Shown here: piece by piece, positions 7,928 to 27,009 of the stretch
How the letters are laid out: the number at the start of each line of letters is the position of its first letter
Numbering within the stretch: the first letter of the stretch is position 1
Source: Planktothrix agardhii NIES-204
GTDB lineage: Bacteria > Cyanobacteriota > Cyanobacteriia > Cyanobacteriales > Microcoleaceae
Direction of reading: 5' to 3'
DNA: 64,000 nt
Assembly: GCA_003609755.1 (NCBI GenBank)
Contig: AP017991.1
Coordinates: forward strand, 4,079,001-4,143,000
Notes under the pieces: generated by a model
The model's input: only the letters and a program-made list of their open reading frames with translations
Told to the model about the DNA's origin: nothing
The model's database searches: none
Position numbers and translations under genes: made by a program

Positions 7928-8031
7928 AGTTTTACCCTAACAATGAAATAATTTAGATATTAAGCGAGTTCTAGGATTATTTTACCTAGTCATAAAACAT
8001 AATATCATTAGCGAACTCAAAAAGCAAGGAA

Positions 8032-8059
8032 TAAAACTCCTCCCCTGGGTAAGGGGAGG
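8032..8059 (-). terminator. Rho-independent terminator of the DHODH-like gene
   Basis: A perfect 8-bp stem (CCTCCCCT / AGGGGAGG, 8039-8059) with a 5-base loop lies just past the stop of the minus-strand gene. On that strand it is followed by GTTTTATT. This would end the nifJ/DHODH-like transcription unit. Confidence 0.5.
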
Positions 8060-13507: not shown

Positions 13508-15784
13508 CTAAAACCGATCATGGAATGTGCGTTTAATCACGTCTAACTGTTGTTCACGAGTTAATTTAATGAAATTCACAGCATATCCAGAAACCCGAAT
13601 GGTAAGTTGAGGATAGTTTTCAGGATGATTCATCGCATCGATTAACATCTCTTTATCCAAGACATTAACATTAATATGATGTCCGCCATCATAGAAATAT
13701 CCATCCAACATTCCTGTCAAGTTATTAACTTGATCCTCTAGGGTTTTACCCAAGGCTTTCGGAACAATTGAAAAGGTGTAAGAAATGCCATCTTGAGCGT
13801 GTTCATAAGGCAATTTTGCCACAGAAGCAGAGGATGCGATCGCACCGTTACTATCTCGTCCATGGAGGGGATTTGCTCCCGGTGCAAAAGGCTCTCCGGC
13901 TTTACGTCCATCGGGGGTATTTCCGGTCATTTTGCCATACACCACATTGGAAGTAATGGTTAAAATAGACTGGGTGGGTACGGCATGGCGATAGGTTTTT
14001 TGATTGCGAACTTTATTCATAAAAGTCCGAACTAAATTCACGGCAATTTCATCGACTCGTTGATCATTATTGCCATATTTAGGATAATCTCCTTGAATTT
14101 CATAATCCAGAGCTAACCCATTTTCTCCCCGCAATATTTTAACTTGAGCATATTTAATCGCGGATAAAGAATCAGCTACAACGGATAACCCTGCGATCCC
14201 ACAAGCTAAAGTTCGATAAACATCCCGATCATGTAACGCCATTTCAATGCGTTCATAACAGTATTTATCGTGCATATAGTGAATTACATTCAGGGTATTG
14301 ACGTATAATTTCGCCAACCATTCCATCATTTGATCAAATTTGGCGACCACTTCATCATAATCTAAATATTCAGAAGTAATCGGAGCAAACAGAGGGGCAA
14401 TTTGCTCACCTGTTTTTTCATCTTTTCCGCCATTAATGGCATAAAGTAACGCTTTGGCTAAGTTCGCTCGTGCTCCAAAAAATTGCATTTGTTTGCCAAT
14501 TCGCATGGCACTAACACAACAAGCAATTCCATAATCATCCCCATAAATAGGACGCATGAGATCATCATTTTCATACTGAATGGAACTGCTTTCAATGGAA
14601 ACTTTGGCACAGAATTTCTTGAAATTTTCAGGTAAGCGTTCTGACCATAAAACCGTTAAATTAGGTTCCGGTGCAGGCCCTAAAGTTGATAAGGTATGCA
14701 GGAAGCGGAAACTGGTTTTACTCACTAATGATCGTCCGTCTTCTCCCATTCCTGCCAGACATTCTGTTACCCAAGTGGGATCACCAGAGAATAATTGATT
14801 GTATTCTGGGGCTCGTAAAAATCGTACCATCCGTAATTTAATGACAAAATGATCGATAATTTCTTGAGCTTCAGATTCCGTTAAAATCCCTTGTTTCAAA
14901 TCCCGATTAAAATAGACATCTAGGAAGGTTGAAACCCGTCCCAAGGACATCGCTGCACCATTTTGTTCTTTAACGGCAGCTAAATAACCAAAATACGTCC
15001 ACTGTACCGCTTCTTTAGCATTGGCAGCCGGAAAACTGAGATCAAATCCATAACTCGCCGCCATCGCTTTGAGTTCTTTTAAGGCTTTAATTTGTTCAGA
15101 AATTTCTTCCCGTAGCTGAATAGTGGTTTCTACAATTTCATCCAATTCTAAGGATTCAAGTTGTTCTTTTTTATCGGTAATTAACCGATCAATTCCGTAC
15201 AACGCAACGCGACGATAATCCCCAATAATTCGTCCTCGTCCATAGGCATCGGGTAATCCGGTAATAATACCAGAATGACGGGCTTTTTTCATTTGACGAG
15301 TATAGGCATCAAAAACTCCATCATTATGAGTTTTACGATATTGGGTAAAAATGTCTTCGGTTTCAGGATCAAGTTCATAACCATAGGATTCTAAAGAAGC
15401 TTTGACAACCCGAATTCCACCAAAGGGCATAATTGCACGTTTTAAGGGGTGATCGGTTTGTAAACCTACAATTTGTTCTAAGCTTTGATCAATATAACCA
15501 GCACCATGAGAAACAATATTAGAGGGAATTTTTGTATCCACATCTAAAATGCCTTTTTCCCGTTCTACACGCATTAAATCTCGCACTAACTCCCACAATT
15601 TTTGAGTGCGTTCCGTTGCTGAAGCTAAAAAGGATTCATCCCCGACATAAGGGGTGTAATTTTTTTGGATGAAATTTCTGACATTAATTTCTTTCGTCCA
15701 TTTATCTTCAATAAATCCTTGCCATTGTTTACATAAATTACTAGAGGATTGATTTAAGATTTGACGTTCATTTGTAGCAATCAT
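13508..15784 (-). CDS. pflB: Pyruvate formate-lyase (formate C-acetyltransferase)
   Basis: A 758-residue glycyl-radical enzyme that cleaves pyruvate with CoA to acetyl-CoA and formate. The adjacent active-site cysteines are in [12 protein letters not shown]. The radical glycine is in the C-terminal motif RVSGYAVNF, at about residue 733. Length matches the family. It requires oxygen-free conditions and activation by PflA, which is encoded immediately upstream with a 153-base gap. PFL together with PFOR in one locus gives two routes from pyruvate to acetyl-CoA, one yielding formate and the other reduced ferredoxin. Confidence 0.97.
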
Positions 15785-15937
15785 AATTCAGACTCCTAAT
15801 TCGATTTGAAACTTTAAGCTTTGACGTTAATAGCAGTAGCGACAAAATGTTAGAACATAGACTCTTGACTCAAATTGAAAGCGTTCTGTATCAGTTCAAA
15901 AGTTTATGATTTTCTGTTTTCTCTGATTCCCAAAATA

Positions 15938-16723
15938 TTACTGAACTGAAAGTCCATAACGCCTAAAACAGTCTTTGACTTGATGAATTTGCTCAGAAGT
16001 GGGCACGGGTGTGTCTTGGAGATGATAAGTGTATCCCAGTTTTTCCCACTTATATTCTCCGAGTTGGTGGAAAGGTGACACTTCTACCTTTTCCACATTC
16101 TTTAATTGAGAAATCAACTTAGCTAATCCTTCAATATTGTCGGGATCATCGGTCAGGTTCGGAACTAAAACAAACCGAATCCAAGTAGGTTTATTAATCC
16201 CGTTCAAATATTGAGCAAATCTCAAGGTGGGTTCAATGGAAGTTCCTGTTACTTGACGATAGGTTAACGGATTAAAGGATTTAATATCCAATAAAACCAA
16301 ATCCACAAATTCGAGAACAGGTTTAGCAACGGTTAAGTTAACGTAACCTGAAGTATCTAAAGCGGTGTGAATTCCGATTTCTTGACAGCGTTGGAAAATT
16401 GCTTGCACAAAGTCGGGTTGTACTAAGGGTTCACCCCCGCTAATGGTAACACCTCCTCCTGAAAATCGCATATAAGAGCGATATTTTTGAATTTCAGCAA
16501 TCAGTTCATCAACGGTAATTTCTTTGCCATCTTGCAAATTTCGAGTGTCAGGATTATGGCAATAAAGACACCGTAGACAACAGCCTTGAGTAAAAATAAT
16601 AAATCGGATTCCTGGGCCATCAACCGTGCCACAAGTCTCTATAGAATGAATCCGACCTGAAACTTTAGAAAGCGGTGAAATGCTTTGAATGGTTTCTGGA
16701 TGTTGATGGGTTTTAACCGTCAT
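15938..16723 (-). CDS. pflA: Pyruvate formate-lyase activating enzyme
   Basis: A 261-residue radical-SAM enzyme that installs the glycyl radical on PflB. The cluster-binding CxxxCxxC is in GCCLRCLYCHNPDTR, near residue 50, and the SAM-binding GGEP motif is in SGGGVTISGGEPL. The N-terminal GRIHSIETCGTVDGPGIRF is the classic PflA substrate-recognition segment. It lies between hypC and pflB on the same strand and is probably cotranscribed with them. Confidence 0.96.
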   Translation of the reverse strand: MTVKTHQHPETIQSISPLSKVSGRIHSIETCGTVDGPGIRFIIFTQGCCLRCLYCHNPDTRNLQDGKEITVDELIAEIQKYRSYMRFSGGGVTISGGEPLVQPDFVQAIFQRCQEIGIHTALDTSGYVNLTVAKPVLEFVDLVLLDIKSFNPLTYRQVTGTSIEPTLRFAQYLNGINKPTWIRFVLVPNLTDDPDNIEGLAKLISQLKNVEKVEVSPFHQLGEYKWEKLGYTYHLQDTPVPTSEQIHQVKDCFRRYGLSVQ

Positions 16724-16789
16724 TTCGCTACTCCTTCGATATTATTCTCTAACACAACAGGGAAAATTGAAATCCTCTCTTAACGTATT

Positions 16790-17023
16790 TTAACTGATTG
16801 TCACCATTTGTTGTAAATCTGTTAAGGTTTGTTGTGCGGCTTGTTCATCGACAATACTCAGTGCAAAACCGACATGAACAATGACATAATCACCGACTTG
16901 AACCTCTGGAACATAAGCCAAGTTGACTTCCTTGATCATTCCACCAAAGCTGACTTTACCGACTTTTTCCAAGGGATCATACCCGGAAATACTCAATAAT
17001 TGACCTGGAATTGCTAAACACAT
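16790..17023 (-). CDS. hypC: Hydrogenase assembly chaperone HypC/HupF
   Basis: A 77-residue chaperone that carries the Fe(CN)2CO unit, together with HypD, to the hydrogenase large-subunit precursor. Family members must begin with Met-Cys, because the Cys binds the iron complex. The sequence MCLAIPGQLLSI beginning at the ATG at 17023 fits this, so the GTG three codons upstream is rejected. The C-terminal segment GDYVIVHVGFALSIVDEQAA is typical. It is the only hyp gene seen in the window. It lies 66 bases upstream of pflA and diverges from hoxE, so one intergenic region may control both directions. Confidence 0.95.
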   Translation of the reverse strand: MCLAIPGQLLSISGYDPLEKVGKVSFGGMIKEVNLAYVPEVQVGDYVIVHVGFALSIVDEQAAQQTLTDLQQMVTIS

Positions 17024-17422
17024 CGGCTGCACCTAAAAATGTTACGTTTCTTGAAGCAAGGAGGGAAAACTGATGAAAAATCCAGACCATTTCTTGTGGT
17101 AGGGATTGTCCCAGTATTTCAGTCCGATCAATACCACATCCATTATTAACCTAGACCGATTAATTCTTTTCTTTATTTTAATACTTTTTTCCATAAATTA
17201 GCAGTAGACTTACAATTTAGAATAGAAGTTGGAGTCAAATCCAGAATCATCGAGATAAACAACACAAGAGTTGTATAACCAACTCTTAACAAAGTCTACA
17301 ATCCCTAAGTCCACAACTGTTATTTAATTTGTGATCATTTTGCTGAACTGAACAGAACTTTTTGAAACGGATCTGCCATTAAAAATCAGCAACAATCCCC
17401 ATCATTAGTAGAGAACTGAACT
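17024..17422. promoter_or_regulatory. Divergent control region hypC-pfl / hox
   Basis: A 399-base AT-rich gap between the minus-strand hypC-pflA-pflB genes and the plus-strand hox operon. It must hold promoters for at least one direction, and probably both. A perfect inverted repeat lies at 17266-17287. I could not identify LexA, NtcA (GTA-N8-TAC) or CRP sites with confidence. Confidence 0.6.
17266..17287. promoter_or_regulatory. Inverted repeat, candidate operator
   Basis: AAGAGTTG and CAACTCTT, perfect 8-bp arms around a 6-base AT-rich spacer (TATAAC), about 135 bases upstream of hoxE and 243 from hypC. The size and symmetry suit a dimeric regulator. No regulator is known for it from the sequence. 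Confidence 0.4.
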
Positions 17423-17953
17423 ATGCAATCTTCTACGGTAACTACTGCAAAAGCTGATAAACCCAAAGCTGGAGCCGCAAAAGGAGGCGATAAACGGTTT
17501 AAAGTCCTGGATATGACCATGAAGCGCAACCAATATCGTCAGGACGCCTTAATTGAGGTGCTACATAAAGCCCAAGAATCCTTTGGCTTTTTAGAAGAAG
17601 ATGTTCTAATTTATGTGGCCAGAAATCTGAAACTTCCCCTCAGTTATGTCTATGGAGTCGCCACCTTCTATCATTTATTCTCCCTCAAACCCAATGGCGC
17701 CCATACCTGTGTAGTTTGTTTAGGAACAGCTTGTTACGTTAAGGGGGGCGGGGATGTCTTAACCGCCTTAGAAGCCCGAACCGGAATTAAAGCCGGGGAA
17801 ACCACCGCCGATGGTCAAATTTCGATTATGACCGCCCGTTGTATTGGGGCCTGTGGTATTGCTCCGGCCGTTGTCTTTGATGGCAAAGTAGCCGCCCAAC
17901 AGACCCCGGAAATGGCCTGCGATCGCATGGCGGCATGGGAGCAGGGGGAGTAA
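17423..17953 (+). CDS. hoxE: Bidirectional [NiFe] hydrogenase diaphorase subunit HoxE
   Basis: A 176-residue NuoE-like thioredoxin-fold subunit that connects the Hox diaphorase to electron carriers. The four [2Fe-2S] cysteines are in CLGTACYVKGGG and MTARCIGACGIAP. The Ala/Lys-rich N-terminal 25 residues are variable in the family. It is the first gene of the plus-strand hydrogenase operon, facing hypC. The last residues (WEQGE) run into G-rich low-complexity DNA before the 102-base gap to hoxF. Confidence 0.96.
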   Translation: MQSSTVTTAKADKPKAGAAKGGDKRFKVLDMTMKRNQYRQDALIEVLHKAQESFGFLEEDVLIYVARNLKLPLSYVYGVATFYHLFSLKPNGAHTCVVCLGTACYVKGGGDVLTALEARTGIKAGETTADGQISIMTARCIGACGIAPAVVFDGKVAAQQTPEMACDRMAAWEQGE

Positions 17954-17990
17954 GAGAGTAGGGGAGCCGAGGAGGTCAGGTCTTGCCGAT

Positions 17991-18050
17991 TCCCCATTAC
18001 CCATTACCCATTACCGATTCCCATTACTTATTACCAATTACCCATTACCC
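17991..18050 (+). repeat. Degenerate heptanucleotide tandem repeat (CCCATTA)
   Basis: Repeats of CCCATTA and close variants fill the hoxE-hoxF gap up to five bases before the hoxF ATG. This is a short tandemly repeated repetitive (STRR) sequence of the kind known in filamentous cyanobacteria. Confidence 0.85.
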
Positions 18051-18055
18051 AAATT

Positions 18056-19672
18056 ATGGAATATAGCGAATTATTAGAATTAGCCGAGAAGGAACAAAAA
18101 TCTCAAAAACCGATCCGGGTTCATTGTTGTACCTCAACCGGATGTGTAGCCTCAAATTCCTTGGGTGTTAAAGATCAAATGGATGCGGCTGTGAAAGCTG
18201 CTGGACTGGAGGAGAGGGTGCAAGTGGTCGGGGTGGGTTGTATGGGATTTTGTGGCCGGGGGCCAATAGTAGAAGTCGAACCCGCCGGACTCCAATACGA
18301 GAAAGTGACGCCTGAAGCAGCCCCATCTATTATTGAAGCCCTGAATGGGGGAGAGGCTAAACCCGTCCAAGGCGATCGCAACCATCCCTTTTTTAGTGGT
18401 CAACTGCTAATTGTTCGAGAAAATAGCGGTAAAATTGACCCGGAAAAAATTGGCGAATATATCGCCGTGGGTGGATACCAAGCCCTGCATCATGCCGTTT
18501 ATGAAATGAGTCCGGCCGATGTGGTAGCCGAAATTACTAAATCCGGGCTCCGGGGTCGAGGCGGGGCGGGATATCCTACGGGATTAAAATGGGCCACCGT
18601 TGCTAAAATGCCCCCCGGACAGAAATATGTGATCTGTAACGCCGATGAAGGAGATCCCGGCGCCTTTATGGATCGGAGTGTCTTGGAAAGTGACCCCCAT
18701 CGGATCTTAGAAGGAATGGCGATCGCTGGATATGCTGTTGGTGCGACCCAGGGCTATATTTATGTCCGGGCCGAATATCCCCTGGCCATCTCCCGTCTAC
18801 AAAAAGCCATTCAACAAGCCAAACGCCAAGGGATTTTAGGGAGTCAAGTCTTTGGGTCGGGAATAGATTTCCGTGTTGATATCCGGGTCGGGGCGGGAGC
18901 CTTTGTCTGTGGGGAAGAAACCGCCCTAATTGCCTCCATTGATGGGGGACGCGGCACTCCTCGCCCTCGCCCTCCCTATCCCGCCGTTTCCGGGTTATGG
19001 GGGGAGCCCACCTTAATTAATAACGTCGAAACCTTGGCCAATATTGCCCCAATTATTAAAAAAGGTAGCGACTGGTTTTCCAGTATCGGCACAGAAAAAA
19101 GCAAGGGGACTAAAATTTTCTCCCTCACGGGCAAAATTCGGAATACCGGTTTAATTGAAGTCCCCATGGGAATTAGTTTACGGACAATTATCGAGGACAT
19201 GGGGGGCGGTATTCCCGGCGGCGTGAAAGTTAAAGCCGTGCAAACTGGAGGGCCATCGGGAGGTTGTATTCCCGCAGAACATTTGGATACCCCGGTAGAT
19301 TACGAATCCTTGGCCCAATTAGGATCTATGATGGGGTCAGGGGGTATGGTGGTGCTGGACGAAAACACCAGTATGGTGCAAGTTGCCCAATTCTATATGG
19401 AATTCTGTCGGGGGGAAACCTGCGGAAAATGTGTTCCCTGCCGCACTGGGACGGTTCAACTGTATCAAATGTTAACCAAAATTCTCAATAAACAAGCTAC
19501 TACCGCAGATATTGAGAAAATGAAACTGTTGTCGGAAATGGTCAAAGCCACCAGTTTATGCGGACTCGGACAAACAGCCCCTAACCCGGTCTTGAGTACG
19601 TTGCGTTATTTTCCAGAGGAATATCAGGCATTATTGCAACCAGAAGAAAGCGGACGGGTTTCGGGGCTTTAA
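18056..19672 (+). CDS. hoxF: Bidirectional hydrogenase diaphorase subunit HoxF
   Basis: A 538-residue flavoprotein that binds NAD(P)H and FMN and passes electrons to the hydrogenase module. The N-terminal thioredoxin-like [2Fe-2S] domain has [10 protein letters not shown] and [10 protein letters not shown]. The Nuo51 domain has the NADH-binding [16 protein letters not shown], the FMN motif [14 protein letters not shown] and the 4Fe-4S ligands [13 protein letters not shown] plus a downstream SLCGLG. The ATG at 18056 is preceded by tandem repeat and has no clear Shine-Dalgarno sequence. Confidence 0.97.
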
Positions 19673-19783
19673 TATTCCTAAAAATGGGATGGTTTATATC
19701 TGCAATGGGTGACTATTTATTGGTATCAACAAAGATAAAATTCACCCATTGTATCCAATACTTTCAAGTAAGGATAATAAAAA

Positions 19784-21433
19784 ATGTTTTGCGAACAATG
19801 TGAACAAACCGCCAGTGGAAATGGCTGTCATCAATGGGGGGCTTGTGGTAAAAGTCCAGAGGTTAATTCAATCCAAGATTTATTAGTCTATTGCTTACGC
19901 AGTATTGCCCCCATTGCTTTAAAAGCTTATGAGTTAGGTATTCCTAATCGAGAAATTGATCGTTTTACCTGTGAAGCGATGTTTTCAACGATGACGAATG
20001 TTAACTTTAGTACGAAGCGATTTGCTGATTCTACCCAACAGGTTTTACAATTGCGAAAAACCTTAAAACAAGCGGTGGAAAGTAAAAGTCCCACCCCCAT
20101 TTCCTGGCCAGAAATTTGTAATTATCAGCCCGATTTTGAGGAAAATTTATCTGAACAAGGACAAAATTTTGCCTTGGATTTAATTCAAAAAGCTAATGGG
20201 AATATTGATATTTATTCCTTGCAATTAACCACAATTTATGGCATTAAAGGATTAGCTTCCTACGCCTTCCACGCCTACGAACTGGGTCAGGAAGATGAGA
20301 AGATTTATCAGTTTATCTATGAAGCCTTAATTGCTTTAGATCGGCAGGATTTAGACTTAAATGCCTGGGTGGGTTTAGCCTTAAAAGTCGGAGAAATGAA
20401 CCTCCGGGCAATGGAATTATTAGATGCCGGACATACCGGACATTATGGACATCCCACCCCCACAAGTGTTCCCTTAAATCATCGTCAAGGTAAGGCTATT
20501 TTAGTCTCTGGACATGATATTAAACAGTTAGAAGCCCTGTTAAAACAAACCGTAGATACGGGGATTACGGTTTATACCCACGGGGAATTATTACCCGCCC
20601 ATGGTTATCCGATTTTAAAACAAAATTATCCCCATTTATTCGGACATTTTGGCACAGCATGGCAGAATCAAACCAAAGATTTTGCTAAGTTTCCTGGGGC
20701 GATTGTGGTGACAACAAATTGTTTAATGCCGCCCCATGAAACCTATGATCAAAAACTGTTTACTCTTGGGCCCGTGGGCTATCCTGGGTTAGGCTATTTA
20801 CCCTCCGATGCTGATGGTATTCCTGACTTTACTCCAGTGATTCAAGAAGCGCTAGAACTCCCCGGCTTTTTGGATGATGAAACCCTCCGGGAAGTGAAAA
20901 CCGGATTTGCCCATAATGCAGTTTTAAGTGTAGCTGATCACGTCGTTGAAGCGGTTAAAGCCGGGAAAATTCGTCACTTCTTTTTAGTCGGCGGTTGTGA
21001 TGGGGCCAAACCCGGACGGAGTTACTATACAGAATTTGTGGAAAAAGTTCCCCAAGATTGTGTTGTCCTCACCTTAGCTTGTGGAAAATTCCGCTTTTTT
21101 GATAAAGAATTAGGTGAAATTGGTAACATTCCTCGATTGATGGATGTGGGACAATGTAATGATGCTTATTCTGCCATCCAAATTGCTTTAGGATTAGCTA
21201 AAGCTTTTGATATTGGTGTTAATGAATTACCCCTATCCATGATTTTGTCATGGTATGAACAAAAAGCCGTGGCGGTGTTATTAACCCTGTTATATTTGGG
21301 GATTCAAGACATTCGTTTAGGCCCGACATTACCCGCTTTTATTTCTCCGAATGTGTTCCAATTACTATCGGACACCTATCATCTGAAAGCGATTTCTACC
21401 CCCGATGAAGATTTAGCCGCTTGTTTAGCCTAG
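19784..21433 (+). CDS. hcp: Hybrid cluster protein (hydroxylamine reductase)
   Basis: A 549-residue enzyme with a cubane cluster and a hybrid Fe-S-O cluster. It reduces NO to N2O in E. coli and hydroxylamine to ammonia in vitro. The N-terminal ligands are in FCEQCEQTASGNGCHQWGAC; later hybrid-cluster ligands occur around TTNCLMPP, GGCDGAKPGR and MDVGQCND. Its place between hoxF and hoxU inside the hydrogenase operon matches an arrangement reported for Lyngbya-type cyanobacteria. It suggests use of Hox-linked reductant under anoxia or nitrosative stress, which is inference. Confidence 0.96.
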   Translation: MFCEQCEQTASGNGCHQWGACGKSPEVNSIQDLLVYCLRSIAPIALKAYELGIPNREIDRFTCEAMFSTMTNVNFSTKRFADSTQQVLQLRKTLKQAVESKSPTPISWPEICNYQPDFEENLSEQGQNFALDLIQKANGNIDIYSLQLTTIYGIKGLASYAFHAYELGQEDEKIYQFIYEALIALDRQDLDLNAWVGLALKVGEMNLRAMELLDAGHTGHYGHPTPTSVPLNHRQGKAILVSGHDIKQLEALLKQTVDTGITVYTHGELLPAHGYPILKQNYPHLFGHFGTAWQNQTKDFAKFPGAIVVTTNCLMPPHETYDQKLFTLGPVGYPGLGYLPSDADGIPDFTPVIQEALELPGFLDDETLREVKTGFAHNAVLSVADHVVEAVKAGKIRHFFLVGGCDGAKPGRSYYTEFVEKVPQDCVVLTLACGKFRFFDKELGEIGNIPRLMDVGQCNDAYSAIQIALGLAKAFDIGVNELPLSMILSWYEQKAVAVLLTLLYLGIQDIRLGPTLPAFISPNVFQLLSDTYHLKAISTPDEDLAACLA

Positions 21434-21487
21434 GGTTAATTTCATGGGTGTCAAAGACAGCCGAAAAAATCTGATTGTAGCCGAATC

Positions 21488-21590
21488 AGATCCCCCTAAA
21501 TCCCCCATCCCCCCTGCCCCCGCGCGCGGGGGGTAAAGGGGGACTTTGAAATCAATCCTGGCCTTATTAAGGGGGGTTAGGGGGGTCAAA
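21488..21590. repeat. C/G-run palindromic repeat, hcp / hoxU gap
   Basis: It has the same organisation as the repeat at 9129-9255: CCCCCTAAATCCCCC at one end and GGGGGGTTAGGGGGGTC at the other, with a CCCCGCGCGCGGGG core. It occupies much of the 272-base gap before hoxU and may form a strong RNA hairpin within the operon transcript. Confidence 0.7.
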
Positions 21591-21705
21591 CCCTATACAA
21601 AATCATGTAAAAATTATTAGGAAAAACTGCTATAATGAAACCAGATACATCTTAAAGTTAAAGGATTAAATTTGATATTTAAACCTCAGAGGAGATGAAA
21701 AAATT

Positions 21706-22422
21706 ATGTCCGTAAAAACCCTAAAAATAGATGGAATTGATGTTGCTGCTGAAGAAGGAACATCTGTACTCAAAGCCGCCGAAGAAGCCGGGGTCAAAAT
21801 TCCCAAACTCTGTCATTTAGACGGGGTTTCTGATGTGGGGGCTTGTCGGTTATGCCTAGTAGAAATTAAAGGAATTAATCGTTTATTACCAGCTTGTGTA
21901 ACCGAAGTTGCAGAAGGTATGGAAGTCTGTACCCAAACCCCCCAACTGCAAGAATATCGACGCATGACCGTGGAGTTATTATTCGCAGAAGGAAATCATG
22001 TTTGCGCCATCTGTGTTGCTAATGGTAACTGCGAATTACAGGACGTTGCGATTGAAGTGGGCATGGATCATAGCCGTTTTCCCTATCGCTTTCCTGACCG
22101 GGAAGTAGACATTTCTCATAGTAAATTCGGCATCGATCATAACCGTTGTATTATGTGTACTCGGTGTGTGAGAGTTTGTGCTGAAATTGAAGGAGCCCAC
22201 GTCTGGGATGTCGGCTATCGGGGAGCCGCAGCTAAAATTATTAGTGGTTTAAATCAACCCTGGGGGGATGTGGATGCTTGTACCTCCTGTGGTAAATGTG
22301 TCGATGCTTGTCCCACGGGTTCAATCTTTAAAAAAGGTACCACTACGGCGGAAATGCAACGGGATAGTGAAAAACTAGAATTCTTAGCAGATGCAAGAGG
22401 GAAACATCAATGGACAAGATAA
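21706..22422 (+). CDS. hoxU: Bidirectional hydrogenase diaphorase subunit HoxU
   Basis: A 238-residue NuoG-like iron-sulfur subunit bridging HoxF and HoxY. The N-terminal plant-type [2Fe-2S] ligands are in CHLDGVSDVGACRLC with a later Cys in PACVTEV. The His-Cys3 cluster is in HVCAICVANGNCELQ. Two 4Fe-4S sites are CIMCTRCVRVCAE and CTSCGKCVDACPTG. An AGAGGAGATG-type ribosome binding site precedes the ATG. Its last 13 bases overlap hoxY, so the two are likely translationally coupled. Confidence 0.97.
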   Translation: MSVKTLKIDGIDVAAEEGTSVLKAAEEAGVKIPKLCHLDGVSDVGACRLCLVEIKGINRLLPACVTEVAEGMEVCTQTPQLQEYRRMTVELLFAEGNHVCAICVANGNCELQDVAIEVGMDHSRFPYRFPDREVDISHSKFGIDHNRCIMCTRCVRVCAEIEGAHVWDVGYRGAAAKIISGLNQPWGDVDACTSCGKCVDACPTGSIFKKGTTTAEMQRDSEKLEFLADARGKHQWTR

Positions 22423-22958
22423 AATTTGCTACGGTTTGGTTGGCGGGTTGTTCCGGTTGCCATATGTCGTTTTTAGACTTAGATGAATGGCTGTTTGATC
22501 TCGCGGAAAAAGTTGATGTTGTCTTTAGTCCGGTGGGTTGTGACTTAAAAGAATATCCTGAAAATGTGGATGTTTGTTTGGTGGAAGGAGCCGTGGCTAA
22601 TGAAGAAAATTTAGAGTTATTATATCAAGTTAGAAAACGGACTAAACTCTTAATTTCCTTTGGAGATTGTGCGGTCACGGCTAACGTTCCGGCGATGAGA
22701 AATATGTTAGGTAGTACGGAACCTGTATTAAAACGCTGTTATTTGGAACTGAGTGATATCGGGGCGCAATTGCCGAATGAACCGGGTATTGTGCCTGAAC
22801 TGTTAGAGCGAGTTCGTCCAATTCATGAATTAGTTGATATTGACATCTTTTTACCCGGATGTCCTCCTTCTGCGGATAGAATTAAAGCCGCGATCGCTCC
22901 TTTATTAGAAGGGAAAATGCCTGTAATGGAAGGACGGGAAATGATCAAATTTGGTTAA
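22410..22958 (+). CDS. hoxY: Bidirectional [NiFe] hydrogenase small subunit HoxY
   Basis: A 182-residue subunit that holds the proximal 4Fe-4S cluster next to the NiFe site. Cluster ligands are in LAGCSGCHMSFLD, FGDCAVTANVP and FLPGCPPSADRI. Length matches the short cyanobacterial HoxY, which lacks a Tat signal, so the enzyme is cytoplasmic. It overlaps hoxU upstream and is separated from hoxH by a 249-base gap full of repeat. Confidence 0.97.
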   Translation: MDKIKFATVWLAGCSGCHMSFLDLDEWLFDLAEKVDVVFSPVGCDLKEYPENVDVCLVEGAVANEENLELLYQVRKRTKLLISFGDCAVTANVPAMRNMLGSTEPVLKRCYLELSDIGAQLPNEPGIVPELLERVRPIHELVDIDIFLPGCPPSADRIKAAIAPLLEGKMPVMEGREMIKFG

Positions 22959-23163
22959 CCGTTGTTGCGCTGTTGTTGCGCCGTTGTTGCGCTTCAGCGC
23001 ACCCAAGGATATAAATTATAACCCTTAATTTTTATCCTCAAATCTAATTAGTAAAGATGCGCTTAGTTGTTGCGCTTCAGCGTACCCCAAGGATATAAAT
23101 TATAACCCTTAATTTTTATCCTCAAATCTAATTAATAAAGATGCGCTTAATCGCAACAACGGG
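22959..23163 (+). repeat. CCGTTGTTGCGC element with 83-84 base tandem duplication
   Basis: The hoxY-hoxH gap starts with three GTTGTTGCGC units at an 11-base period (22961-22992). Two copies of an 83/84-base unit follow (22983-23065 and 23066-23149), differing at a few bases. It ends in CGCAACAACGG, the inverse of its beginning, so the whole block is bounded by inverted repeats. Related pieces lie at 24644-24702 and 26980-26992. Confidence 0.85.
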
Positions 23164-23207
23164 GTAGAAAAGTTCAAGCTAAATAACAAACTACAGAGGT
23201 TAAAAAT

Positions 23208-24638
23208 ATGTCTAAAACCGTTATTATTGATCCAGTGACTCGGATCGAAGGTCATGCTAAAATATCTGTCTATTTAGATGATGCGGGAGAAGTAGAAAAT
23301 GCCCGGTTTCACGTCGTAGAATTTCGCGGTTTTGAAAAATTCTGCGAAGGACGACCGATGTTTGAAATGGCTGGAATTACCGCTAGAATTTGCGGAATTT
23401 GTCCTGTTAGTCACCTGTTAGCTTCTGCTAAAACTGGCGATAAAATCCTCGCTGTGCAAGTACCTCCAGCCGGGGAAAAACTGCGGCGGATGATGAATTT
23501 AGCACAACTTACTCAGTCCCATGCTTTAAGTTTTTTCCACCTCAGTAGTCCTGATTTTCTATTAGGTTGGGATAGTGATCCAGCTAAACGAAATGTGTTT
23601 GGTTTAATGGCGGCTGATCCTGATTTAGCTCGGGCAGGAATTCGCTTGCGTCAGTTCGGACAAACGGTAATTGAACTATTAGGCGCCAGAAAAATTCATG
23701 CGGCTTGGGCGGTTCCGGGTGGCGTGCGTTCTCCCCTTTCCGATGAAGGGCGAGAATGGATTATTGATCGCTTACCTGAAGCTCGACAAACCACCGAATT
23801 AGCTATTAGTATCTTTAAGCGTTTATTAGATACGGAATTAAAAACCGAAATTGATGTTTTTGGCAAATTCCCCTCATTGTTTATGGGGTTAGTTGCCCCC
23901 GATGGTACTTGGGAACACTACGGCGGACACCTAAGATTTATTGATAGTAATGGGGAAATTGTCGCCGATGGTTTGAGCGAAGATAACTATCAAGATTTCC
24001 TCGGAGAAGCCGTTGAAAATTGGTCTTATTTGAAGTTTCCCTATTACAAACCCCTGGGATATCCCGATGGTATTTATCGCGTTGGGCCCTTAGCAAGATT
24101 GAATGTTTGTGACTGTATTGGTACCGAAGATGCAGACCGAGAATTAATTGAATTTCGGCATCGGGCGGGGGGACGGGTAGCTACTTCTTCCTTCTTCTAT
24201 CATTATGCTCGTTTAGTGGAAATTCTCGCTTGTATTGAAGCCATTGAACAGTTAGTTGATGACCCTGATATTATCTCAAAACGGGTGCGTTCAGAGGCGG
24301 GGATTAACTGTTTAGAAGGAGTGGGAGTTAGTGAAGCTCCACGCGGCACTTTATTCCATCATTATCAAGTAGATGAAAACGGATTAATTAAGAAAGTTAA
24401 CTTAATTATTGCCACCGGACAAAACAATTTAGCCATGAATAAAACCGTGACTCAAATTGCCCAACATTATATTCATGGTAATGATATTCCCGAAGGGATG
24501 TTAAACCGAGTCGAAGCCGGAATTCGTGCTTATGACCCTTGTTTAAGTTGTTCTACCCACGCCGTCGGACAAATGCCTTTGCACATCCAATTAATTCAAA
24601 AGGATGGAACAGTAATTAAAGAAAAATACCGCCATTAA
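23208..24638 (+). CDS. hoxH: Bidirectional [NiFe] hydrogenase large subunit HoxH
   Basis: A 476-residue catalytic subunit that binds the NiFe centre for reversible H2 oxidation. The L1 motif is [15 protein letters not shown] and the L2 motif is [12 protein letters not shown], supplying the four Ni cysteines. The protein carries a 25-residue C-terminal peptide after the L2 His, which an endopeptidase (HoxW) must remove after metal insertion. The GAGGTTAAAAAT upstream supports the ATG. The downstream gap contains another GTTGTTGCGC element. Confidence 0.97.
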
Positions 24639-24643
24639 CCCTA

Positions 24644-24702
24644 CCGTTGTTGCGCCGTTGTTGCGCTTAAGCGCAATCTTAAGGGCTAAAGCCCAACAAC
24701 GG
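24644..24702 (+). repeat. CCGTTGTTGCGC element, hoxH / ferredoxin gap
   Basis: Two GTTGTTGCGC units (24646-24655, 24657-24666), a GCGCTTAAGCGC palindrome and a closing CAACAACGG. The ends are inverted copies, as in the hoxY-hoxH gap. Confidence 0.8.
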
Positions 24703-24726
24703 ATTTATGATATTAGGAGGCAAAAA

Positions 24727-24990
24727 ATGCCAAAGGAAAACTTATATTTATGTATGGGTTCTGCTTGTCATCAGCTTGGAGTGTATGAAGTGTTACCGAA
24801 ATTGCAAGCCTTGATGAGTGAATATGATATTGATCACAAAATTGAGCTAAAAGGCTCATTTTGTTTAGAAACTTGTAGTTCGGGAATTGTGATGAAATTT
24901 AAGGACTTACATTTTATTAATATTAGTCCTCAAAATATTGAAGATAGATTTTTGCAAGAAATTCTTCCCGCCATTAAAGATCAGAATTGA
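24727..24990 (+). CDS. Thioredoxin-like [2Fe-2S] ferredoxin
   Basis: An 87-residue protein with a NuoE/HoxE-type [2Fe-2S] site: cysteines in LYLCMGSACHQLG and KGSFCLETCSSG. The ATG at 24727 follows a strong TTAGGAGGCAAAAA ribosome binding site, so the longer upstream frame running into the repeat is rejected. Small ferredoxins of this type occur in hydrogenase operons of anaerobes next to PAS and SpoIIE-type proteins, as here. A role as redox relay or sensor for the following PAS/phosphatase pair is inferred. The next gene begins ten bases downstream. Confidence 0.85.
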   Translation: MPKENLYLCMGSACHQLGVYEVLPKLQALMSEYDIDHKIELKGSFCLETCSSGIVMKFKDLHFINISPQNIEDRFLQEILPAIKDQN

Positions 24991-25000
24991 GATAAACACC

Positions 25001-25501
25001 ATGTTAGAAACAACTCAGAATCACCTCTGGCAACTTTTGTGGGAATATGATCCTAACGGTTTAATTGCCGTAGATTCAGACTTGATGATTAAAGTTGTTA
25101 ATCCGGCTTTTTGTAAACTATTTAATGTTGAAGCGAGTGAAATTATTGGTAAACCCGTAACCGAAATTTTAGGGAATGTAGATCATTTTAAAACTGTTTG
25201 GGAAACTAATCAGGTAATTCGGGGACGGGAAACAGAATATCCTGAATATCATTTGTATATTCGAGAGTTTATTTTTCCCATTAAGGAAGAAAATATTATT
25301 GGCTGTATTATGAGCGATATTACCGCCGAAATGGAACGTAAAAAAGAAACGGATATAATCAAGGCAGAAACCGTTAAAAAAGTGAATGAAGTAGTTGATA
25401 ATCAAATGAAAGTCGCTCAAGAAATTGCCGGGTTATTAGGAGAAACCACCGCCGAAACTAAAATTAGTTTACTCAAAATTATTGAACTGGTGAATCAGTA
25501 A
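25001..25501 (+). CDS. PAS-domain protein of the hydrogenase operon
   Basis: A 166-residue cytoplasmic protein. Residues about 15-105 form one PAS domain (GLIAVDSDLMIKVVNPAFCKLF, cited by its key residues NPAFC) ending in a PAC-like GCIMSDITAEMERKK. The C-terminal 60 residues are helical and probably dimerise. No kinase, HATPase or output domain is present, so it must act through another protein. The likely partner is the SpoIIE-type phosphatase encoded 51 bases downstream. The ligand is unknown; a Cys at the NPAFC position is notable. The ATG at 25001 was chosen because the upstream part overlaps the ferredoxin gene. Confidence 0.8.
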   Translation: MLETTQNHLWQLLWEYDPNGLIAVDSDLMIKVVNPAFCKLFNVEASEIIGKPVTEILGNVDHFKTVWETNQVIRGRETEYPEYHLYIREFIFPIKEENIIGCIMSDITAEMERKKETDIIKAETVKKVNEVVDNQMKVAQEIAGLLGETTAETKISLLKIIELVNQ

Positions 25502-25507
25502 ACTATC

Positions 25508-25522
25508 GGAAACCGGGTTTCT
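25508..25522. repeat. AAACCGGGTTT palindrome
   Basis: GGAAACCGGGTTTCT, one of at least six near-copies in the window (see also 58651, 59111, 60021, 60070 and 62808). Here it sits between the PAS and phosphatase genes. Confidence 0.7.
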
Positions 25523-25552
25523 ATCTATTCCCTATATTTTAGTAAAATTAAT

Positions 25553-26719
25553 ATGAGTCAAGATAACTTTTTTGATATTTGTCACCTGAGTTTGAATAAA
25601 AAAGGCGAAGAACTTTGTGGTGACCAAGTTAAATTTACCAAAAGCGAAACTAAAAGCACTATTGTTTTATCCGATGGTTTAGGAAGTGGGGTAAAAGCGA
25701 GTATTTTAGCCACCTTGACCACGGAAATTTTAATCACCATGTTAAATGCGGATGTTCCTTTAGAGGAAGTGATTAAAACCGTGATTGGAACTTTACCTAT
25801 CTGTCAGGTGAGAAAAATTGCCTATGCAACTTTTACGATTATTTCGATTAATCATTTAACCAATGAATTTAAAGTAATTAATTTTGATAATCCGCCAATT
25901 CTTTATTTTAAAAAAGGTCGCATTGTTAAATTAGAAACCAAAATTGATAAGATCTTAGGGAAAAAAATTCAATATTCAGAAGGAACATTAGAGCGGGGAG
26001 ATTTTATTGGGGCGATTAGTGATGGTATCCTTTATGCTGGGTTAGGGGATACGATGAATTTTGGCTGGGGTTGGGATAATATTGCTAAATACATGGAGAG
26101 AATTTTTATTAGTCAAGCGACTAATTCTCGAACAATTATTGAGCAAGTAATGTCTGAAACCCGTTCTTTATATCGGGAAAATATTGGCGATGATGCAACT
26201 TTTGTGGGGGTTTATGTTAGAAAACCTAACCCGGTCATGATTTTTACTGGCCCGCCTTTAGATATTACTCAGGATGAATTATATGCCGATAGGTTATTAA
26301 ATTTCCCCGGTAGAAAAGTAATTTGTGGCGGAACAACTGGAAATTTAGTCGCAAATTATATGGGAGAAACTATTGAAATGGATATTGCAACCATGCGAAA
26401 AGATTTACCGCCTATTGGTAAACTAAAAGAGGTGGATTTAGTTACAGAAGGAATTTTAACGATTTCTAAAGCCACGGAAATTTTGAGAAAATGTAAGGGG
26501 GATATTGCCCGGTTAGCTTCTGATAATAATGGGGCGGTTTTATTGGCGCGGGAAATTATCGAAGGAGATTCGATTTATTTTTTAGTAGGTCAACAAATTA
26601 ATGAGTTTTATCAGAATCCTTTATTACCTAAAAATATTTCAATTCGTCGTAACTTAATAGAAGATTTAGTCCAGTTACTTCGCAGTCAACAAAAGGAAGT
26701 TGTGATAGAATATTGTTAA
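25553..26719 (+). CDS. SpoIIE-type PP2C serine phosphatase with extra C-terminal domain
   Basis: A 388-residue protein. Residues about 1-225 form a SpoIIE/PP2C-like phosphatase with metal-binding acidic motifs VLSDGLGSG, AISDGI and IGDDATFVGV. Residues about 230-388 form a second domain beginning near MIFTGPPLD, with VICGGTTGNLVANYMG and DLVTEGILTISKATEIL. This architecture resembles phosphatases I recall from [FeFe]-hydrogenase operons of Firmicutes. It would dephosphorylate a Ser/Thr-phosphorylated protein, possibly in response to the adjacent PAS and ferredoxin proteins. The target is unknown and no partner kinase or anti-sigma factor lies in the window. Confidence 0.82.
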   Translation: MSQDNFFDICHLSLNKKGEELCGDQVKFTKSETKSTIVLSDGLGSGVKASILATLTTEILITMLNADVPLEEVIKTVIGTLPICQVRKIAYATFTIISINHLTNEFKVINFDNPPILYFKKGRIVKLETKIDKILGKKIQYSEGTLERGDFIGAISDGILYAGLGDTMNFGWGWDNIAKYMERIFISQATNSRTIIEQVMSETRSLYRENIGDDATFVGVYVRKPNPVMIFTGPPLDITQDELYADRLLNFPGRKVICGGTTGNLVANYMGETIEMDIATMRKDLPPIGKLKEVDLVTEGILTISKATEILRKCKGDIARLASDNNGAVLLAREIIEGDSIYFLVGQQINEFYQNPLLPKNISIRRNLIEDLVQLLRSQQKEVVIEYC

Positions 26720-26739: not shown

Positions 26740-26958
26740 ATGATTTTAATTGTCGGATATGGGAATCCCATTCGAGGAGATGATGGTGTTGGTCAAGCGG
26801 TAATAACAGAGGTTGAACAGTGGAATTTAACGAATGTGCGATCGCTTTCTATCCATCAACTCACCCCCGCAGTTGCCGCAGAAATGGCGGAAGTTGATAC
26901 GGTTATTTTTGTGGATGCTGCTTTAGAAGGAGATACGGTTAATATTATTTCCTTGTAA
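26740..26958 (+). CDS. hoxW: Hydrogenase maturation endopeptidase HoxW, C-terminally truncated
   Basis: Only 72 residues, where family members have about 150. It starts MILIVGYGNPIRGDDGVG, the usual N-terminus with the first metal ligand, and continues to VIFVDAALEGD, with the second ligand Asp. It then stops (TTGTAA) before the His that completes the nickel-sensing site in the HybD family. Neither other forward frame after the stop resembles the missing part, and cysS ends at 27010 on the opposite strand. It lies 20 bases after the phosphatase gene. It may be non-functional. Confidence 0.8.
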   Translation: MILIVGYGNPIRGDDGVGQAVITEVEQWNLTNVRSLSIHQLTPAVAAEMAEVDTVIFVDAALEGDTVNIISL

Positions 26959-26979: not shown

Positions 26980-26992
26980 AAGCGCAACAACG
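26980..26992 (+). repeat. Fragment of the GTTGTTGCGC element after hoxW
   Basis: AAGCGCAACAACG, the inverse end of the element at 22959-23163 and 24644-24702, located 22 bases past the premature hoxW stop. Confidence 0.6.
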
Positions 26993-27009
26993 AATTTATT
27001 CAACCTCAA

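Follow-up and report, generated by a model that had tools for sequence, protein, structure and literature searches.

Background

The closest described relatives of the genes considered here are the hfsABCD operon of Thermoanaerobacterium and the hydS operon of Ruminococcus albus. In the portions of the literature available to us, the sensory [FeFe] hydrogenase HydS (HfsB) is described as a putative sensor of H2 (PMC8924675, PMC11837493, PMC5707799), deletion of hfsB is reported to give a higher ethanol yield together with correlated adhE expression, and a homology of HfsC to serine phosphatases is stated (PMC5707799, PMC11837493 for both). The involvement of a phosphatase in HydS/HfsB signalling has so far been deduced, in those portions, from gene neighbourhood and deletion phenotypes. 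Here we analyse a stretch of 64,000 nucleotides from Planktothrix agardhii NIES-204 (contig AP017991.1, positions 4,079,001 to 4,143,000, hereafter "the window"), in which three genes, encoding a thioredoxin-like [2Fe-2S] ferredoxin, a PAS protein and a SpoIIE-type phosphatase ("the trio"), follow hoxH, in the operon of the [NiFe] bidirectional hydrogenase Hox. Our reading, to which we assign a probability of roughly 0.6, is that the trio is a HydS/HfsB-HfsC-type cassette without its [FeFe] hydrogenase head ("head-less" below), which relays redox or H2 status and thereby adjusts fermentation.

The trio and its resemblance to HydS cassettes

On the + strand of the window, hoxE-hoxF-hcp-hoxU-hoxY-hoxH (17423..24638) are followed by the genes for the ferredoxin (24727..24990, 87 amino acids), the PAS protein (25001..25501, 166 amino acids) and the phosphatase (25553..26719, 388 amino acids), and then by hoxW (26740..26958). 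The trio open reading frames (ORFs) are open and intact, and the intergenic gaps are 88 bases from hoxH to the ferredoxin gene, then 10, 51 and 20 up to the start of hoxW. The last three of these agree with an initial annotation of this DNA, which had placed the three genes between hoxH and hoxW. The hoxW that it named is present, but as a truncated copy of 72 amino acids, an intact hoxW lying elsewhere in the genome (see below).

The phosphatase has a clear SpoIIE domain (PF07228, E 8.5e-16, 58.9 bits against a cut-off of 25), and its residues D24, D41, D157, D213 and D214, aligned to SpoIIE structures, are invariant in 44/44 rows, the metal-binding aspartates of such phosphatases being among them. 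A scan of named genomes gave at least 576 confirmed relatives, and our locus counts refer to the best 80 of them. In 66 of these 80, mostly from Firmicutes, an [FeFe] HydS gene lies directly upstream of the phosphatase gene, although in L080, L105, L108, L109 and L129 the HydS gene is broken or truncated by the end of the contig; a thioredoxin-like ferredoxin commonly precedes HydS, and HydA2 or HydABC-like genes are near. The mention in the initial annotation of similar cassettes in [FeFe]-hydrogenase operons of Firmicutes was thus borne out. Identity to the HydS-linked relatives is 36-43% (37% for R. albus). The homology extends over the full length, including a C-terminal domain of about 165 amino acids (26216-26716, + strand), and the gene stands, as theirs do, directly 3' of one for a PAS-bearing protein, as expected of an HfsC-type phosphatase. 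This C-terminal domain is conserved across phyla, and none of five members scanned had a Pfam family above cut-off in it. Two cysteines of the phosphatase were also noted: Cys22, beside the catalytic GD, is invariant in 44/44 rows of one alignment and missing in several rows of another (the "same phylum" rows introduced below), and Cys84 is conserved in 43/44 rows. These could possibly form a redox switch within the phosphatase itself.

Of 386 genomes from the phylum that were searched with the phosphatase, 145 have it, namely 12 at 71-100% identity (same class or closer) and 133 at 29-37% ("same phylum"; many of these are small genomes from outside the class). One of the latter, L049, carries the phosphatase gene between HydS and an [FeFe] hydrogenase gene, with a gene that looks Rex-like by eye upstream.

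The PAS protein, too, connects the trio to HydS. It matches Pfam PAS_9 above cut-off (E 8.8e-9), and PAS matches are all that it has; there is no [FeFe] hydrogenase domain (PF02906), which the HydS-type relative in L049 does possess. HydS proteins end in a PAS domain followed by a tail of consensus QMxVAQEIAxLLGETTAETK, and such a tail, QMKVAQEIAGLLGETTAETK (25403..25462, + strand), is also present in the window protein. Against the C-termini of the 66 HydS loci the window protein scores 58-116 bits with the tail covered, and against those from "same phylum" genomes 48-81 bits. The idea that it is a generic PAS protein was rejected, since the second-best PAS in its own genome reaches only 21.9 bits, in a match that ends before the tail. 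A loose version of the tail motif occurs in 69/69 HydS-group rows, 20/20 "same phylum" rows, 15/15 cyanobacterial rows and 7/7 other head-less rows. We conclude that, judging by its sequence, the PAS protein is the signalling end of a sensory [FeFe] hydrogenase of the HydS/HfsB type, without the hydrogenase head. The stand-alone PAS protein of the initial annotation is therefore not an anonymous one.

A cysteine pair sets the cyanobacterial PAS proteins apart from those of HydS. Cys38 (codon 25112..25114, + strand) and Cys102 (codon 25304..25306, + strand) are both present in 15/15 cyanobacterial rows and in three further cyanobacterial sequences (18 in all), and in 3/7 other head-less rows, with a fourth having Cys102 alone. 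The pair is complete in 0/69 HydS-group rows, nine of which have one of the two, and in 0/20 "same phylum" rows. These counts, and those of the tail, include near-copies among the cyanobacterial rows (L037, for instance, is identical to the window). One genome is repeated in at least two of the 20 "same phylum" rows, and eleven locus names, mostly duplicates, were skipped. The HydS group includes Desulfomonile L099, even though the protein encoded upstream there is a 767-amino-acid membrane PAS protein. The pair may mark a sensing chemistry that replaces the H-cluster.

The ferredoxin scores below the Pfam cut-off for 2Fe-2S_thioredx (PF01257, E 5.9e-4, 20.1 bits against 24.8), and its identification therefore rests on four invariant cysteines (C9, C14, C46 and C50, in the pattern CX4C...CX3C, 19/19 rows) and on conserved context. 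We rejected the possibility that it is a copy of the N-terminal domain of HoxF, with which identity is 12%. All three trio genes are under purifying selection between congeners, the ratio of nonsynonymous to synonymous divergence (dN/dS) being 0.21 for the ferredoxin, 0.083 for the PAS protein and 0.074 for the phosphatase, as compared to 0.023 for hoxH. The intact catalytic aspartates, the four ferredoxin cysteines and this selection say that the parts of the trio probably work.

Distribution among cyanobacteria

At a threshold of E <= 1e-100, HoxH is found in 86 of the 386 genomes, including all 12 class-level carriers of the phosphatase and none of the 133 "same phylum" carriers, so that every phosphatase carrier of the class has hoxH, a co-occurrence proposed as a check in the initial annotation. 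Searches for the ferredoxin, the PAS protein and AdhE covered 80 of the 86 hoxH-positive genomes; the six others, all of family f25, have no SpoIIE phosphatase in the search of all 386. Ferredoxin, PAS protein and phosphatase each occur in the same 12 of these 80 genomes, from six genera, and in 0/68 of the others. Such an all-or-none occurrence is more than chance, among genomes that are related by descent.

The order of the genes is kept less strictly than their company. The trio stands directly 3' of hoxH in 8/12 genomes; against the initial annotation, it is split in the remaining four, all of family f8. One of these (G187) has hoxH, ferredoxin and PAS genes together and the phosphatase gene about 0.95 Mb off; another (G151) has hoxH with the ferredoxin gene, and the PAS and phosphatase genes on other contigs; in G109 and G119 the ferredoxin and PAS genes are paired away from hoxH, and the phosphatase gene lies next to hoxW elsewhere. 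Since these genomes still hold all three genes, the trio stays together in the genome even when separated on the map, and in all four a trio member still adjoins hoxH or hoxW.

One may also consider that the ferredoxin, perhaps with the PAS protein, is a direct electron-transfer or maturation partner of Hox, and that the target of the phosphatase is a subunit of Hox or Hyp and not gene expression. Such a role would suit the position of the trio between hoxH and hoxW in the window, G255, G157, G286, L068 and L077, and the retention of the ferredoxin gene directly 3' of hoxH in the split genomes G187 and G151. Yet 68 of the 80 hoxH-positive genomes manage without the trio, so that Hox does not need it, and the PAS domain and tail are signalling modules common to HydS. 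Furthermore, in Spirulina subsalsa adhE lies directly 5' of the trio and hoxW-hypA 3' of it, hoxH being absent from the 19 kb that were fetched. We therefore regard a direct partnership with Hox as rather improbable.

In a HoxH tree of 24 rows (16 with the trio and 8 without, the latter picked from high-scoring trio-less genomes) presence of the trio is patchy and requires at least five changes. One loss is directly visible: in the trio-less congener G262, a deletion scar lies between hoxH and hoxW (L060, ~8005-8055), where 33 bases resembling the beginning of the ferredoxin gene (88% match) are joined straight to the last bases of the phosphatase gene.

Relatives outside the cyanobacteria

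The 14 of the best 80 loci that remain besides the HydS-linked ones comprise six from cyanobacteria and eight others without HydS. In a phosphatase tree of 98 rows, the 14 cyanobacterial rows form one clade (Shimodaira-Hasegawa-like approximate likelihood ratio test, SH-aLRT, 99), nested within a 20-row clade (SH-aLRT 95) that holds head-less cassettes only and whose further members come from Armatimonadota, Chloroflexota (two), KSB3, Verrucomicrobiota and Fusobacteriota. This tree was made by a quick method with a midpoint root, has long branches in the "same phylum" rows, and labels Acetoanaerobium L053 as HydS although no hydrogenase stands beside it. The 20-row clade may have lost the head or may never have had it. 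Two other head-less loci (L112 and L099) fall among HydS-linked rows, and thus lack of the head either originated or persisted on more than one occasion.

Some of the non-cyanobacterial head-less cassettes do adjoin a hydrogenase. The trio lies beside HydABC-like genes in KSB3 L076 and Planctomycetota L112, and in the Fusobacteriota metagenome-assembled genome (MAG) L079 the order is adhE-trio-ferredoxin-[FeFe] hydrogenase. The tie to hydrogenases on which the initial annotation relied holds in cyanobacteria; against it, 5/8 head-less loci outside them have no hydrogenase gene within the DNA that was fetched.

Loci of the latter kind suggest a different explanation, in which the cassette is a general redox or stress partner-switching module (RsbU-like) that is merely parked in the hox operon and regulates neither hydrogenase nor fermentation. 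STAS anti-anti-sigma factors are frequent targets of SpoIIE-type phosphatases, and the splitting of the trio in four of the 12 cyanobacterial genomes would also be compatible with such a module. Under this explanation, however, one would hardly expect all 12 trio genomes to hold hoxH, when only 86/386 genomes do so overall, nor hoxH or hoxW to adjoin a trio member in each of the split genomes, nor HydS to be next door in 66 of the best 80 phosphatase relatives; in addition, no STAS or GHKL gene was noticed beside the trio, in neighbourhoods that were not scanned systematically. We consider a parked general module unlikely.

hoxW, repeats and recombination

The hoxW that follows the trio encodes 72 amino acids in the window strain, 103 with an unrelated end in another P. 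agardhii strain (G255) and 147 in two congeners. By protein search, a second hoxW that is intact (at least 144 residues) was located about 1.7 Mb away in the same genome (G000:C1:2399734-2400165; L155:2735-3211). We accordingly rejected the notion of a strain without a maturation protease for Hox, and thus Hox maturation need not be impaired. A search with family PF01750 had found no protease, but it was blind, missing both the truncated copy and the Synechococcus elongatus control. The genes 3' of the intact hoxW resemble hypA and hypB by eye, and the same order follows the trio in S. subsalsa; the truncated hoxW is best read as the leftover of a moved block.

Repeats flank the trio. A dispersed repeat with a 19-base core has one copy (24689..24707, + strand) within a stable RNA hairpin 5' of the ferredoxin gene (z -3.3), the hairpin deriving from the repeat, and a second copy (26980..26998, + strand) just 3' of the truncated hoxW, abutting its break. 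A mobile element bounded by this repeat was considered and rejected, there being seven copies across the genome at no more than one mismatch. Between the window and G255, synonymous divergence (dS) is 0 to 0.012 for the trio and 0.03 to 0.24 for the hox genes, and divergence in 250-base bins is 0-0.4% over the trio, 0.4-14.8% at 17000 to 24750 and 0-6% downstream. These values weakly suggest a recent exchange of the trio segment.

The flanking repeats, the clean loss of the trio in a congener, its near-identity in two strains and the truncated hoxW next to it would all be in line with a decaying or selfish insert between dispersed repeats that has no current role. Against this stand the catalytic and cluster residues that are invariant across the aligned rows, dN/dS values of 0.07-0.21 between congeners, the spread of the trio over six genera of the sample, and the congener G157, which has no repeat in the 94 bases 5' of its ferredoxin gene. 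An insert of this kind is very improbable.

Other features of the window

Among the hox products, HoxE, HoxU and the hydroxylamine reductase score above the NCBIfam cut-off; for HoxF, HoxY and HoxH the matches are to related families and stay below cut-off, and these three are named from gene order and homology. The hybrid-cluster-protein gene hcp (19784-21433, + strand, Pfam Prismane) between hoxF and hoxU is also present in the trio-less G213 (L061). An AGGAGG motif stands immediately 5' of the ferredoxin gene, and promoter- and terminator-like sites are no more numerous than the shuffled mean. Divergent to hoxE run hypC (named by eye), pflA and pflB (13508-17032). In G255 no pfl gene was found beside hox; the place is taken by a long ORF which, by eye, resembles pyruvate:ferredoxin oxidoreductase, and as far as such naming goes this is a swap of the pyruvate enzyme. 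We dropped pfl adjacency as functional evidence, because pflB-pflA was not found in the fetched stretch of G255 or of G157.

Proposed mechanism and its implications

Gene order and homology point to a chain in which Hox or the ferredoxin would act on the PAS protein and the latter on the phosphatase. The ferredoxin would take electrons from, or equilibrate with, the HoxEFU diaphorase or another ferredoxin pool, and would set the state of the PAS protein, probably via the PAS pocket and the C38/C102 pair. The PAS tail might then bind the phosphatase and switch its activity on or off, and the phosphatase would in turn dephosphorylate Ser/Thr residues of a protein that controls dark fermentation, or of Hox itself. 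As to output, fermentation control is the most likely one, given the adhE-trio order in S. subsalsa and in the Fusobacteriota MAG L079, and the presence of AdhE in 11/12 trio genomes as compared to 26/68 genomes without the trio (Fisher p 9e-4, kinship not removed; the match in G157 is partial, residues 140-871), and adhE expression would be the leading candidate by analogy with hfs. In R. albus (L054:5040-5789) and several other loci, an APH-type phosphotransferase gene lies between adhE and the HydS cassette; its product is a candidate for the kinase opposing the phosphatase. A more specific version of this scheme is that a head-less HydS relative has become a cysteine-based PAS redox sensor, taking the catalytic [NiFe] hydrogenase as its input via the [2Fe-2S] ferredoxin and keeping the phosphatase output to steer cyanobacterial fermentation; we put this forward tentatively, as a possibility on which we would not wager.

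Several observations weigh against a relay of redox or H2 status to fermentation. Most hoxH-positive genomes do without the trio, as noted above, and AdhE is absent from the trio genome G151 and present in the 26 trio-less genomes already counted. No kinase or target was identified within the operon. Outside the cyanobacteria, the fetched stretches of L073, L074, L075, L078 and L099 showed no hydrogenase gene, and those of L074, L075 and L078 no ferredoxin gene either, leaving a PAS-phosphatase pair there. The input may thus be something other than a hydrogenase or this ferredoxin. Finally, electron paramagnetic resonance of a group D HydS, which has no PAS domain, argues against a redox change of the C-terminal cluster as the signal (PMC13104023).

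Should the relay exist, it would provide a candidate for a Ser/Thr phosphatase that regulates dark fermentation and H2 output in cyanobacteria. The natural head-less version isolates the PAS-tail-phosphatase part of HydS signalling, is small, and occurs in cyanobacteria, which are open to direct tests. It also suggests that a single signalling cassette can work with two classes of hydrogenase that are unrelated to each other.

Comparison with known systems

With the hfsABCD and hydS operons the trio shares a homologous phosphatase, a homologous PAS domain and tail, and the order ferredoxin-sensor-phosphatase. Several loci of the hfs/hydS type have adhE nearby, as do some trio loci, the Thermoanaerobacterium sequences themselves not being part of the comparison. 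In contrast to those operons, the sensor in the window has no H-cluster domain and no HydA2 partner, its neighbour is a [NiFe] Hox enzyme, and its PAS domain carries the cysteine pair. The head-less cassettes in MAGs of KSB3, Planctomycetota and Fusobacteriota consist of the same three genes as in the window; they differ in that their hydrogenase is of the [FeFe] class, and L112 lies elsewhere on the phosphatase tree.

A signalling protein is likewise coupled to a [NiFe] hydrogenase in Ralstonia, whose H2 sensor HoxBC-HoxJ pairs a dedicated regulatory hydrogenase with a histidine kinase. The window, by comparison, combines a catalytic-type Hox with a Ser/Thr-type phosphatase. HoxJ is named in PMC5707799. 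The order of the hox genes is that of the standard cyanobacterial hoxEFUYH(W), including the type of Lyngbya and Arthrospira with hcp between hoxF and hoxU. In the same reports, the region 3' of hoxH in Lyngbya majuscula is given as a membrane protein, xisH, xisI and hypotheticals, with no trio (PMC2674450, PMC3858816 for both).

The initial annotation knew of no description of such an arrangement for a [NiFe] Hox enzyme, and in the open PMC literature searched we likewise found none of a trio beside it. The available portions of PMC2674450, PMC3858816, PMC4918915, PMC5707799, PMC11837493, PMC8924675, PMC13104023, PMC13222304, PMC13421787 and PMC5186783 do not show a trio in a hox operon. Thus, as far as this literature goes, the window cassette is a variant of the known HydS/HfsB-HfsC cassette, and it is its placement beside a [NiFe] Hox hydrogenase that is new.

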